From: Bacillota bacterium
GTDB lineage: Bacteria > Bacillota > Limnochordia > DTU087
DNA length: 32,017 nt
Direction: 5' to 3'
NCBI GenBank assembly: GCA_012518905.1
Contig: JAAYRF010000139.1
Location: 1 to 32,017 of the forward strand
Part shown: piece after piece, positions 1-8,093 of the stretch
How the letters are laid out: each line of letters opens with the position of its first letter
Numbering within the stretch: position 1 is the stretch's first letter
Notes under the pieces: generated by a model
Told to the model about the DNA's origin: nothing
The model's database searches: none
What the model saw: the letters and a program-made list of their open reading frames with translations, nothing else
Position numbers and translations under genes: made by a program

Positions 1-3000
1 CAAGTTGTGCTATACACCCGGGAGCGGCGACAGGTAGCGGCTGTTCGGACAGGGGCTGATGGCATGTATCAAATCGGCTCTTTACCTGTCGGTAAGTACT
101 ACCTGGAAGCAAGCTCACCTGGATATGTCTCTACCCAAAGCGAGGTTTTTCAGCTCGATGGCTATGAGGATTTTAGGCTAGATCTGGCTCTCTTGCCGAA
201 CAGAACTCTAGATCTAGACTTGCAGCTTCAACCTAGTGCGGCTGCTGTTGGTGATTTGGTACAGGCTGTACTTTATGTCACCAATTCTGGAACTAGAGAT
301 CTCTTAGGTAGTGTGGTGGAGCTTGCTTTGCCCCATGGTCTTAGCTACGTGGCAGGGAAAAAAGATGCCGGAAGGCTAGAGAGTAGCAATGATGAGGCTG
401 GAAATCGAGTGATCCGCTGGGAAACGGGCTTTCTTGCCCGAGGAAAAACCCGTCAGGCAGAGATCTGGCTGCTAGTGGGCTTAGATGTCCCCTATGGTGG
501 TACCAAGCTAAGTGCCCAAGCTACTGGTTATGCTAAAGGGGCAGCATCTGTTACACCCCGGGTGGAGCGGAAGCTGCATGTAGAGAGTGGTCCTTTCTTA
601 GCCACGACTCCTCAGCATGTAGTAGATTGCCATCTGATTTTGCCCTTTGGTGAAAAGGGAACCATGGAGGTGCATATCCAACCGGACAAAGCCGTACTTG
701 GACCGGGACTTCCCTTCGCAAAGCGAGACGTGGACAAACGCAGACAGCGAAGCTCTTTGGTATCAGTGGCAGAACCCTTGCCCCTAGATACAGGGGTGAT
801 AGCGCCCCACAGACTTCGTATCCGTTTAGAGAAAGATGACTGGGCTGTAGAAGGCGGCAAGTGGCACCATAATATTGATTTTTCCCCGTTTCCTCAAGAG
901 ACTGTGGCGTTTCAGGGAGTACAGATTGGCAGCAGGCTAGATCAGATTGCAACTTTGCGGATTTTCTATGGGCTTCCTTTAGCATGGCCGCATGTTGCCC
1001 TTTACCCAGCAGACAATACCTCGGGGCCTTTTGAGTTGCCAAAAGCACCTAGTTTAGCTGGAAGAGTGGATGTAGCGATCTTAAGCTGGGATCCTGTGAA
1101 GAATGCTTGGCAGGAAGAGGCGCCGGTGCTCTTTCGGGTAGATCACGGCCAAGGAACTGTGACCTTAGGCCGGGCAGTTAGCACTTACAATGCCCAAGGT
1201 AGGCAGCAGTATGTTCTGGTGGCATATACGCAAAATGAAATGGGCTTCGATGTAGCCTGGAAAGAAGCGGGGCTGTCTTTTGCCGGGGATGATTGGCATC
1301 TTTATGCCGGGTATCTAGAAACTGATCTCTTAGGCAAGCATAAGATGGCTACTGTCTTGGGAAAGGCCAGGGGGCCTGAGTTTAGGCTGCAGGGGAGCCT
1401 ACGAACTGTGTTGGGTTACAGGGACAAAGTACTAAATCCAATTGATACAACGGCAAGTGATGCCGAAAAAACTGATGCTTACTTTCCGGCCTTGTCTAAG
1501 TCAAGAGATTCTCATATAGATTGGGATCGTGGTTTAGCTTGGCAGCTTACTGCAGCCCTTGAGGCCCGGCCTGGGCTGTGGTTAGCAGGCGGATGGGAAG
1601 GAGCAGGGAGAGGCTTTGTTGATCTTTGGGGGGTAACAGCTCTTCAAGATTGGGAAGCCGCAAAGATACCATCGGAGGGAAAGGAAGAACTAGATGGCAT
1701 GGTGCTTCGCGTAAGAGAAGTGCTGGGTCAGCAATCTAGAATACATCGGGGTGCAGACGGGTTTTTGTCTCCTTCCGACCGCCGGCGAGCTGCGGCCATC
1801 GGTGCCGAACTTGAGCTCAAGGGAGGCTGGGCGCTGGGTTCACTAGCAAGTCGCACGAAGATTATGCCCGCTCAGGGTGACAAGGCCCAGATGGGCCCTA
1901 TGGAGACGATCCAAGGGTGGGAGCAAAGACTAATCTATCGAGGGATAGGCCTACCCCGTTGGAGCCTGGGCTATGGCCAAAGGATGGCGGATAAGCAATC
2001 ATCGGTGCAGAAGACGCACTATGCCCTTATGGAGGTAGATGGCTACTTGGCTGACTTGGAGTGGGGTGCCCGGTTGGAGATCAGCCAGGAAATAGGGCAA
2101 AGTGGCAAACAGGATAGTCTCCCATGGAGTAACCCGCTGGTGGCCACTGGTGAACTAAAGGCTGCATACGAGCATGGCAGGGTTCGGCCATATCTCCATG
2201 GGCGTCAGGGAGTATTCCATCCGGGTCTGGGTGAGAAATCGTCGCCGGGTCAAGAAGAATGGACCATTGGGGTGGAAGGTGAGCTGAGTGAGGCTTTTTC
2301 GCTTAGACTTGCCCATACTCAAAGGCGAGATGCCTATGGGCCAGCAAACCGTGGAGACCAAGGACTTGGTGATTTGGAGCGCTCCCAGAATCGGGACACC
2401 TTGTCAATTGGGGCTCAATACATGATGGGAGAAAAGGGGAGGCTAGAGGGCACATATGAATGGCCCACGGGCCCCAAAGCTTCGTCCAATCAAGTTGCTT
2501 GGCGGGGTAGCCTTGAGCTAGAGAGAGAGCTATCTCCCAACGCTTTCTTGCGCCTAGGATGGGTAAGATGGCAGGATACCCTTATCTCACCGGTGCGAGA
2601 ACCATGGGATCGGATAAACTTGGAGTTAGCCTTGGGGGATGCCAGTCAGATGCTGTCTACTACAAAGCTCAATTTGGCTGCACATCTCGGGAAGGGCCAA
2701 ATCCTTGGTTGGGAGCTAGCGGGGGAGGGGAAGTGGGAATTTGCGAGAGTCTGGGAGATTTGGGTTCATGCCGCACAGAAGCAGGTGGTTAACGGCGAGA
2801 TTGGCAGCTTTACCACCCAGCAGGGAATACTGCGCTTTTCCCGGGCTCTTTCAGATAGATTCGCTGCATTTACACAAGTCGGTGGATGGCGCCAAACGGG
2901 TAGAAACGAAAGGGGATATAGCCTTGGCCTAAGTTACCGAATGGCCCCGGGAGTCGCCTTGGCCGTAGGTCATACCTGGTCAAATCAGAGACATAGAACT

Positions 3001-3057
3001 AAAGAGGGCTTTTTGAGTGTCAAGCCCGGTATTTTCCTGCAGATCCAGTATCGCTAA
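1..3057 (+). CDS. Large surface/outer-membrane-like protein: carboxypeptidase-regulatory-like domain, DUF11-like domain, C-terminal beta-barrel-like region (5' end outside window)
   Basis: Frame is open from base 1. YQIGSLPVGKYYLEASSPGY matches a CarboxypepD_reg-like fold; VGDLVQAVLYVTNSGTRDLLGSVVELALPHGLSYV is DUF11-like; the C-terminal ~550 aa has alternating amphipathic strands ending LGLSYRMAPGVALAVGHTWSNQ...KPGIFLQIQYR. Confidence 0.75.
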   Translation, partial: QVVLYTRERRQVAAVRTGADGMYQIGSLPVGKYYLEASSPGYVSTQSEVFQLDGYEDFRLDLALLPNRTLDLDLQLQPSAAAVGDLVQAVLYVTNSGTRDLLGSVVELALPHGLSYVAGKKDAGRLESSNDEAGNRVIRWETGFLARGKTRQAEIWLLVGLDVPYGGTKLSAQATGYAKGAASVTPRVERKLHVESGPFLATTPQHVVDCHLILPFGEKGTMEVHIQPDKAVLGPGLPFAKRDVDKRRQRSSLVSVAEPLPLDTGVIAPHRLRIRLEKDDWAVEGGKWHHNIDFSPFPQETVAFQGVQIGSRLDQIATLRIFYGLPLAWPHVALYPADNTSGPFELPKAPSLAGRVDVAILSWDPVKNAWQEEAPVLFRVDHGQGTVTLGRAVSTYNAQGRQQYVLVAYTQNEMGFDVAWKEAGLSFAGDDWHLYAGYLETDLLGKHKMATVLGKARGPEFRLQGSLRTVLGYRDKVLNPIDTTASDAEKTDAYFPALSKSRDSHIDWDRGLAWQLTAALEARPGLWLAGGWEGAGRGFVDLWGVTALQDWEAAKIPSEGKEELDGMVLRVREVLGQQSRIHRGADGFLSPSDRRRAAAIGAELELKGGWALGSLASRTKIMPAQGDKAQMGPMETIQGWEQRLIYRGIGLPRWSLGYGQRMADKQSSVQKTHYALMEVDGYLADLEWGARLEISQEIGQSGKQDSLPWSNPLVATGELKAAYEHGRVRPYLHGRQGVFHPGLGEKSSPGQEEWTIGVEGELSEAFSLRLAHTQRRDAYGPANRGDQGLGDLERSQNRDTLSIGAQYMMGEKGRLEGTYEWPTGPKASSNQVAWRGSLELERELSPNAFLRLGWVRWQDTLISPVREPWDRINLELALGDASQMLSTTKLNLAAHLGKGQILGWELAGEGKWEFARVWEIWVHAAQKQVVNGEIGSFTTQQGILRFSRALSDRFAAFTQVGGWRQTGRNERGYSLGLSYRMAPGVALAVGHTWSNQRHRTKEGFLSVKPGIFLQIQYR

Positions 3058-3205: not shown

Positions 3206-3249
3206 AAGCAAGAAAAGGGCTATCCGCTTCATTCTTAGCGGAGAGCCCT
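3206..3249 (-). terminator. Rho-independent terminator of the downstream minus-strand gene
   Basis: Minus strand: AGGGCTCTCCGC-taagaatgaa-GCGGATAGCCCT followed by TTTCTTGCTTT. Confidence 0.7.
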
Positions 3250-3288
3250 CAATATTTGATCCCATTGATAAAGAGAAACCCGGTACTT

Positions 3289-4137
3289 TTAGAAGCCAGG
3301 CATTTGCATCTTCCATGGCTCTGTCTGCAACTCGTATTTGAGTTCCTCGGGCCAGTCCTCAGCCATTTTCTCCAGCAACGCAACCAGTATCTCCCAGGCA
3401 AGGTCAGGATGGGAAGACGCAAACCAGATGGCAAGGATCTCGTTGCGTCCCGGATGGGGGATGCCATAGATTGAACCGTCCACTTGCAGAGCCTCTAGTC
3501 CATTCGGGAAGAAGCTATCTATGAGATCTGGCCTAGATTCCAGGTAAGGAGTGAGATCCAAAAGACCCCCGTGCTCAGCGAACATAAGATAGCGATCTTC
3601 AAAGAGGGAAAAAACATCCGGTGCGTCCCTAGCTCCCATGAGGACAACCAATTTTTGATCATAGGCCACAGAAGGCGTTACTGCTATAGATAGATAGTGT
3701 TCGGGATGTGATGCGTTGAACTCTTCAACGATAGGGTCAAAATAAGCGCTTTCCGGTATTCCACCCGGCACCATGATGCTGATTTTGGTCCGTCCAGCGG
3801 CTGGATCCGGTCCAGGTCGCAAGGCAAACCCCACCAGCCCTAAAACCAGTACTACAGATATAATAATAAGAGCAGTGCGCTGGGGGCTGCGTTTGAGATA
3901 GCGGGCATCACCCAGATTTTCCCTAGGTTCGCTCTGAACTGCCAGTGCTACTTGTGGGCAGCCGTGTTGCCTGCAGCCTGCGGCTTCCCGCCAGCAGTCA
4001 GCGTGATGTGGGGATTTGCAGCGGGGACATACCACTACTTCATCGCCGGCATTTAGCTTCTTTTGGCATGCAATACATACATCGCCCACTAGCTTATGAT
4101 CTGCGGACAAAACCAATAGCTTCTCACTTCTGGCCAT
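3289..4137 (-). CDS. RING-like zinc finger + single TM + reduced extracellular solute-binding (SBP family 1-like) domain protein
   Basis: CIACQKKLNAGDEVVVCPRCKSPHHADCWREAAGCRQHGC treble-clef/RING-like cluster; TM ALIIISVVLVLGLVGFAL; SBP-like ISIMVPGGIPES..FDPIVEEFNASHP..DVFSLFEDRYLMFAEHGGLLDLTPYLE. The ORF extends to 4194, but the ATG at 4137 has GGGGGAG upstream. Confidence 0.75.
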   Translation of the reverse strand: MARSEKLLVLSADHKLVGDVCIACQKKLNAGDEVVVCPRCKSPHHADCWREAAGCRQHGCPQVALAVQSEPRENLGDARYLKRSPQRTALIIISVVLVLGLVGFALRPGPDPAAGRTKISIMVPGGIPESAYFDPIVEEFNASHPEHYLSIAVTPSVAYDQKLVVLMGARDAPDVFSLFEDRYLMFAEHGGLLDLTPYLESRPDLIDSFFPNGLEALQVDGSIYGIPHPGRNEILAIWFASSHPDLAWEILVALLEKMAEDWPEELKYELQTEPWKMQMPGF

Positions 4138-4349
4138 AGCAACTCTCCCCCAAAGACTTCCCAATCGACCTAACTCCTTGCTCAAGCATATCATATTAGT
4201 CGCTTGATTTCCATGCGATAGAATCCGGTGAAATCCGGTGGCATGGATACCGAGGAAGTTCTAGAAATCCTCCATAGAAGCCATGCTAAGTGCAGGAGGA
4301 GGGAGTTCTCTAACCTGGACAGTTCGTAGATAGCTGAAAGGAGAAGGCC

Positions 4350-4595
4350 ATGGTTCTAGGTATTATGGGTATTCTGCTGAAGGATCGTCGGGCTCAGGCG
4401 CCGGAGGTACAGGAGGTGTTGACCAAGTATGGAGACATAATCCTCTCCCGCCATGGCGTACACGATGCTGCCGAGTCAAAAGGATTGATCACCCTCACCA
4501 TTGAGGCAGCTGGGGAAGAGTTTGATGCCCTAGTAGCAGAGTTAGAGGATGTATCGGAAGTTTGCGTGAGTACAGCGATGTTTCCTAATAGATGA
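4350..4595 (+). CDS. TM1266-like putative iron-only hydrogenase system regulator (ACT/NikR-C-like small protein)
   Basis: MVLGIMGILLKDRRAQAPEVQEVLTKYGDIILSRHGVHD...GLITLTIEAAGEEFDALVAELEDVSEVCVSTAMF; upstream GAAAGGAGAAGG. Confidence 0.65.
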   Translation: MVLGIMGILLKDRRAQAPEVQEVLTKYGDIILSRHGVHDAAESKGLITLTIEAAGEEFDALVAELEDVSEVCVSTAMFPNR

Positions 4596-6722: not shown

Positions 6723-8093
6723 TTGAGAGAGAAGTACCGGGAAATCATGGATGAACTAGACTATATAACTACCCACGAAGGCTTTGTAGAAACCTGCTTG
6801 GATCTACGAGATTCCATGTACTTCTACGACAAAGGTCTGATTCTGGCCGGTTATGCTGGTTCTGTAGAAATGCTAATGAGCTTTGCTATGTTTTGGGCGG
6901 TCCTCGAGGCGCCGGAGCGGGGCGAAGAGATCTTTGATGAGATAGCGGATATTACCAATCATCTGGAGACAAGGCTCCGGGCAGACGAAGCAGCCATGGA
7001 TATTGTAGCATTAGTGGAGACCTTCCTCCAGACCACTGGCTGGGTTGTGGAGCAGCGCTATGTCGTTTTCCGCGAGATGTTTGAGGCTTACATGACCAAT
7101 GCCTATAGCGCCACAGGGTGTGCTGATGAGCTCTTGCGCCAAGCCCAGCTATGGGTGGAAAAAGATAACGCCAAGGCTGCCAAGCTGGTAGGACAGGTAG
7201 GGGCCATGGCTCTTCGGGGTGTGGAGGTCAGGCCGGTATGGTTCTATATCGCTAGGCCCCGTCTGCAAATGTGGCTCCGGGGAGTTTTGGGTGCTATCCA
7301 GAATTTCGCAGCAGCGGCCCATTTTTCTTTTCCCGTTGATAGTGTGGAGCGGGAAAGGCAAAAGTGGCGGTCGGATGCTCCTCGGCCTGTGGTGGATCTA
7401 CGGGCTTTTCGCAATCTGCGCTATCCTATGATGCCTACGGATACCCCCGAGGTCTTGAGGCGAGGAGAGCTGGACGATGACCTGCTTCAGCTCTTCGCAG
7501 GAGGTCCACTGGACAAGGATACTATGCACAGCTTGGTGACAGCCGGGGAGTCAATCAAGGACGTGCTCTTGGCGATTCTGGAGACCGAAGAACTAGGTGA
7601 GGAAGACGCACCGGGGGAAGGATGGGCCTTGGCTAATGTGATACGGCTCCTAAGTGAGCTGGAGTACCCAGAGACAGTTGCTGCTTTGCTGGGGCTTTTG
7701 GGTAGGATTAGGCCCGGCTCAGTTTTGTATAATCATGTGAAGTCAGTTTTGGTGGATCAGCCGGAGACAGCTGGAGAAGCCGCGTTGGAGAAGCTTAAGG
7801 CTGCAGATGTCAGTGTCCAGGAAGCATTGGCTCTTATCGATTTACTCAATCAAATTCAACCTGCCAGAGTCTACCCGGCGTTAGTAGGCGTCTTGGATAA
7901 GGCGGTGAGCTGGGAGGAAAAATTGGCTGTGGCCCGAAGCCTTCTGGACACCGGAGATGTGCGGGCCATTCCCCATTTACGCCGTCTGGGAGCTTCTATG
8001 TCCAATTCGCCCTATGGCGGTGCGGTAAAGGAATTTCTCAGCGTGGCCACCAGGCAGCTGCGGGCTAGCCAAGTCCAAAAAAGGCGTGTATAA
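6723..8093 (+). CDS. Hypothetical protein with C-terminal HEAT-like repeats
   Basis: TTG start behind AAAGGAGGGG; C-terminal HEAT-like helices (PETVAALLGLLGRI, LAVARSLLDTGDVRAIPHLRRLG). Confidence 0.7.
   Translation: MREKYREIMDELDYITTHEGFVETCLDLRDSMYFYDKGLILAGYAGSVEMLMSFAMFWAVLEAPERGEEIFDEIADITNHLETRLRADEAAMDIVALVETFLQTTGWVVEQRYVVFREMFEAYMTNAYSATGCADELLRQAQLWVEKDNAKAAKLVGQVGAMALRGVEVRPVWFYIARPRLQMWLRGVLGAIQNFAAAAHFSFPVDSVERERQKWRSDAPRPVVDLRAFRNLRYPMMPTDTPEVLRRGELDDDLLQLFAGGPLDKDTMHSLVTAGESIKDVLLAILETEELGEEDAPGEGWALANVIRLLSELEYPETVAALLGLLGRIRPGSVLYNHVKSVLVDQPETAGEAALEKLKAADVSVQEALALIDLLNQIQPARVYPALVGVLDKAVSWEEKLAVARSLLDTGDVRAIPHLRRLGASMSNSPYGGAVKEFLSVATRQLRASQVQKRRV

Follow-up and report, generated by a model that had tools for sequence, protein, structure and literature searches.

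The focal gene encodes a membrane protein in which a Prok-RING zinc finger is joined by one transmembrane (TM) helix to a single lobe of a solute-binding protein (SBP). Judged from profile alignments, the second lobe is cleanly missing at the hinge. An architecture search of 61 genomes of the protein's class within the Bacillota (its own genome and 60 relatives) found the finger-TM-lobe protein in 48. The initial annotation of this DNA had described such a fusion; that observation is confirmed and is stronger than was claimed. Because a lone lobe is unable to close around a nutrient, the protein most likely serves as a transmembrane adaptor, not in transport. An SBP reduced to precisely one lobe and retained class-wide would be a clean natural case of a transport domain repurposed.

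The gene, its neighbors, and its conservation

The window (i.e. the whole stretch of DNA analyzed, 32,017 nucleotides) lies on contig C253 of a 2.41-Mb genome in 299 contigs, whose named relatives are Bacillota metagenome genomes. Features are collected in Table 1. The coordinates and strand of the open reading frame had been given correctly in the initial annotation. The ATG at 4137 is the preferred start, and relatives begin at the equivalent position; a longer start at 4194 is less likely. The gene had been credited with its own terminator, and a likely hairpin was located behind it (Table 1), one that a simple consensus terminator scan did not list. As had also been stated, no transporter or permease gene adjoins the focal gene in the window, and a complete sugar ABC operon is ~14 kb away.

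Table 1. Positions of the focal gene and associated features in the window
Feature	Position	Strand	Details
Focal gene	3289..4137	-	282 aa + stop: Prok-RING finger, TM, single-lobe SBP
Shine-Dalgarno GGGGGAGAG	4143-4151	-	5 nt before ATG 4137; from sequence
C4HC3 Prok-RING_1 finger, residues 21-60	3958..4077	-	PF14446 E 9.6e-12; ligands invariant
Single TM helix, residues 88-106	3820..3876	-	Hydropathy 2.81; finger side usually the more positive
Lobe I N-terminal segment of SBP_bac_1, residues 115-229	3451..3795	-	E 4e-8; ends at hinge IYGIPHP
R182, conserved in single-lobe proteins only	3592..3594	-	Residue frequencies
Hinge junction, ~158 lobe II residues absent	3444..3462	-	Split profile matches, 16/19 full-length SBPs
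Lobe I C-terminal segment, residues 230-260 (ILAIWFASSHPDLAWEILVALLEK)	3358..3450	-	C-segment profile
Rho-independent terminator hairpin of focal gene, likely	3215..3250	-	-22.2 kcal/mol, z -3.35, then U-rich run
HEAT-repeat-like gene	6723..8093	+	Homologs near focal gene, opposite strand, 22/38 loci

Two other genes lie close by. Positions 1-3057 encode a protein of at least 1018 aa with CarboxypepD_reg and DUF11 domains and a weak Porin_4 match, a combination that suggests a barrel in the outer membrane of a diderm cell. Positions 4350-4595, divergent from the focal gene, encode a TM1266-like putative iron-only hydrogenase regulator. The HEAT-like protein (Table 1) could be a partner of the focal protein, or the two may merely share synteny; other genes are also common to the loci of some families, so the proximity may be inherited order only. 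The placement of this neighbor (c1) and a second HEAT protein (c24) in one family was tested and was unsupported.

For alignment, a set of 38 orthologs was used, with identities to the window protein of 24-69%. The initial annotation had suggested looking for the same architecture in related genomes and had allowed for a frameshift that removed lobe II in this one. A frameshifted or truncated gene is excluded by the spread of the architecture through the 48 genomes, by eight invariant zinc ligands, and by a uniform junction. That the protein is a decaying SBP fragment, the chance survivor of a deletion, is scarcely credible: one lobe is indeed missing, but the gene occurs in many families with identities as low as 24%, the ligands do not vary, and the core of the lobe is conserved. 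Three candidates for stand-alone half-SBPs in the class (G000:C217, G022:C291, G028:C109) proved to be SBPs of the full-length type, at contig ends or with broken frames.

Finger, membrane helix, and lone lobe

The Pfam profile PF14446 (Prok-RING_1) matches residues 17-58 at 45.1 bits, where the cut-off is 29.1; among the matches listed, this is the only one in its own genome. All 38 aligned orthologs match the same profile. The ligands C21, C24, C37, C40, H45, C48, C55, and C60 are invariant in this set and stand in treble-clef order; P38, R39, W49, and G59 are likewise invariant. Mean pairwise identity in the finger is 54%, the highest among the long regions. The “RING-like zinc finger” of the initial annotation is thus borne out, and from its sequence it is a C4HC3 Prok-RING of the two-zinc type, with zinc binding predicted. 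It shares with PF14446 a score above the curated cut-off, the treble-clef C4HC3 arrangement, and a location on a membrane protein, and differs in its fusion to a solute-binding lobe. In the literature searched, to which the founding survey (Burroughs 2011) did not belong, no paper was found on a RING-SBP fusion or on a single-lobe SBP.

Exactly one TM helix was predicted in 37 of the 38 orthologs, with a mean pairwise identity of 23% within it. Lysine and arginine are richer on its N-terminal side in 25 orthologs and on its C-terminal side in five (totals around the helix, 156 vs. 102). This bias places the finger inside and the lobe outside, the topology originally proposed. The part following the helix is as short as had been stated, although the figure is ~176 aa in place of ~190 aa.

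This outer part was recognized by SBP_bac_1 (PF01547) over residues 129-227, a match that spans just positions 6-107 of the 307 in the profile (E 4e-8); 34 of the 38 orthologs matched as well. A PDB profile search returned sugar-binding proteins (best E 3e-16), with a second stretch of lobe I visible in two of the three alignments shown. Mean pairwise identities in the two lobe segments are 35% and 29%, and the middle region ahead of the hinge is shorter in some families. In MBP-type proteins, lobe II is an insertion in lobe I, whose first part is N-terminal and whose second part comes later in the chain; this layout is the pattern found in the focal protein.

The junction was located with a profile built from the orthologs and run against the retrieved proteins, among them 19 distinct full-length SBPs. 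In 16 of these 19, the profile split into two matches, the first mostly stopping at profile position 221-235 and the second beginning at 226-231. Beyond what the profile accounts for, 151-167 SBP residues were skipped at the split (median 158.5). In single-lobe proteins, the profile ran through unsplit. Taken singly, the second matches are weak (-1.7 to 7.4 bits); what counts is that they share a junction and that the skipped lengths fall in a tight range. In most full-length SBPs, a separate profile of the C-terminal segment fell close to residues 300-357; an example is SIPKTTKHPEAAWKLIEYLSG in a full-length SBP vs. IWFASSHPDLAWEILVALLEK in the window. The description of the domain as a half-size SBP without lobe II therefore stands. 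In common with SBP_bac_1, the focal protein has the lobe I segments, the PDV motif, the YGxP hinge, and the C-terminal helix of lobe I. It departs from that family in having neither lobe II (~158 residues) nor a cleft, in its TM anchor with a finger inside, and in its gene neighborhood: a permease gene adjoins it neither in the window nor among the conserved neighbors of the orthologs.

An AlphaFold model was made from an alignment of three sequences (the window protein and those of two loci). With this input, the whole protein had a pLDDT of 42.8, with the finger scored best, and the outer domain a pLDDT of 62.5 and a pTM of 0.60. A fold search with this model, too low in confidence for a judgement on the fold, gave a list rich in SBPs, but with all query TM-scores at or below 0.30 and E above 0.01.

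The descent of the lobe from family-1 sugar SBPs, in which many genomes of the class are rich, would also suit a protein that serves sugar ABC importers as a decoy or assembly factor, its single lobe sitting in the permease dock of the true SBP's lobe I. We hold this to be improbable, given that no permease gene stands next to the focal gene and that family f7 retains the protein with just 1-3 total matches per genome in the architecture search (a figure that is not a full SBP count).

Finger-free relatives and FtsEX

A phylum-wide search revealed a second form of the lone lobe: lipoproteins elsewhere in the phylum, newly found here, that carry it without a finger. Short ones (174-224 aa) were found in families f64, f98, and f23; f23 also has longer ones (354-388 aa). 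Seven of the eight genes for the short form have ftsE-ftsX directly downstream, and the eighth has an S41 protease gene. In six f64 genomes, a transketolase gene is followed by those for the single-lobe lipoprotein, FtsE, FtsX, an M23 hydrolase, and an S41 protease; on one f23 contig the single-lobe gene precedes ftsE and then ftsX, and in the f98 genome it precedes the S41 gene. At locus L081, FtsE and FtsX scored above their NCBIfam cut-offs. The lipoproteins encoded upstream of ftsEX have no NCBIfam match of their own. They have in common with the focal protein the lobe, the deletion junction, and an arginine typical of single-lobe proteins; they differ in being anchored by a lipobox, in lacking the finger, and in lying mostly in ftsEX clusters. 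In family f23, the single-lobe SBPs of L093 and L179-L181 have an extra C-terminal part of ~170 aa and lie outside such clusters.

The arginine, R182, is present in 77% of the RING forms and 100% of the lipoprotein forms and is uncommon in full-length SBPs; the distribution of A169 and P155 tends the same way. A tree of 79 sequences (143 columns, full-length SBPs entered without the C-segment) set the full-length SBPs apart from all single-lobe proteins with 97% ultrafast bootstrap support. The tree is consistent with one origin of the single-lobe proteins but does not prove it. Since the lone lobe also occurs without a finger, loss of lobe II appears, on present evidence, to be independent of the finger.

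The initial annotation had seen in the fusion a signalling or sensing device that replaces transport with an intracellular interaction finger. The architecture, the topology, and the loss of lobe II are supported, and transport may have given way to such a finger; the sensing of a ligand is less likely than the docking of a protein, because finger-free lone lobes exist. A sensor would bind a small molecule with the lone lobe, alone or dimerized into a cleft, and signal through the TM helix to the finger. Conservation of lobe I and the hinge motif, together with the restriction of R182 to single-lobe proteins, would fit. A cleft, however, requires two different lobes, a ligand set is not evident, and a TM route for signals is lacking in the lipoprotein forms; we thus consider a sensor unlikely, though a little less so than the decoy.

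In the window's class, the focal gene was not found beside ftsEX, either in the window or among the orthologs. FtsX_ECD exceeded its cut-off solely in f7 genomes in a search of the class, and a profile of the FtsX stub matched in seven f7 genomes only. FtsX in f7 is a stub of ~180 aa or an M23 hydrolase fusion. At L159-L163, it consists of the ectodomain and flanking hydrophobic segments, and its gene adjoins that of an M23 hydrolase or is joined with it in one 539-aa fusion; an FtsE gene was not seen next to it at these loci. TIGR02673 (FtsE) had no match above its cut-off in the class among many ABC ATPases, a result that says little about FtsE itself. As the RING form does not stand beside FtsX in the class, any cell-wall role of it is one that we infer from finger-free homologs in other families. 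These relatives, encoded in ftsEX clusters, open a way to test function.

A proposed adaptor, and the ubiquitin question

A lone lobe of this fold class cannot form the usual cleft. With no second lobe, and hence no Venus-flytrap cleft, the outer domain is best understood as a protein-docking module. We infer from this that the protein, conserved and crossing the membrane once, is an adaptor whose finger lies in the cytosol and whose lobe docks proteins outside, perhaps in cell-wall or division control; this explanation as a whole is put forward tentatively, as having somewhat less than an even chance of being right. The outer lobe, related to the lipoproteins of the ftsE-ftsX-M23 hydrolase-S41 protease clusters, would dock proteins in the envelope; the finger would recruit a cytosolic partner; and the protein would thereby couple an envelope complex to the cell interior, perhaps in the control of the cell wall or of division. 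A wider proposal is possible but doubtful: that single-lobe SBPs are previously undescribed envelope regulators acting with FtsX-type proteins and M23/S41 peptidases in cell-wall remodelling, and that one of them, in the window's class, gained a cytosolic RING finger that supplies the transmembrane link that FtsEX provides otherwise. In that class, FtsX is either a stub or was not detected.

According to published work, the functions of prokaryotic RINGs vary, and not every one is tied to ubiquitin (PMC4029887). The focal finger would offer a concrete, class-wide membrane example of a bacterial RING outside ubiquitin systems. An E3-like ligase or proteolysis adaptor, whose RING draws machinery for ubiquitin-like conjugation or for degradation to membrane proteins, would be in keeping with the finger's membership in the RING/PHD fold group and with a Prok-RING protein found elsewhere in the phylum beside YukD, ThiF, and JAB genes. 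It is unsupported, and we rate it as quite improbable, below both the sensor and the decoy, because the YukD-like ubiquitin fold is absent from 21 near genomes in a search with a working control and no ubiquitin-system genes lie near the focal gene. Two E2 families gave no matches, but their positive controls were silent too. The locus elsewhere in the phylum (L082:6361-10217, family f64) has genes for a YukD-type ubiquitin fold, a ThiF/E1-like protein, and a JAB protein, followed by a converging gene for a Prok-RING protein with a TM segment, and resembles a ubiquitin-like system of bacteria that includes a RING in the membrane.

The other Prok-RINGs met in the searches likewise reside on membrane proteins. 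At three loci (L174:4200-4556, L175:4077-4421, and L177:2219-2683), the RING protein is short, ends in a TM segment, and has no SBP lobe; at L174 and L175, the preceding gene encodes a secreted protein that is CsgG-like by eye. At L091:9898-10635 and L092:9112-10104, a Prok-RING is fused to other multi-TM domains, that of L091 being RDD-like by eye. The RDD-like and tail-anchored proteins (L091, L174, L175, and L177) resemble the focal protein in that a finger is followed by a membrane segment, and they differ from it in having no SBP lobe outside.
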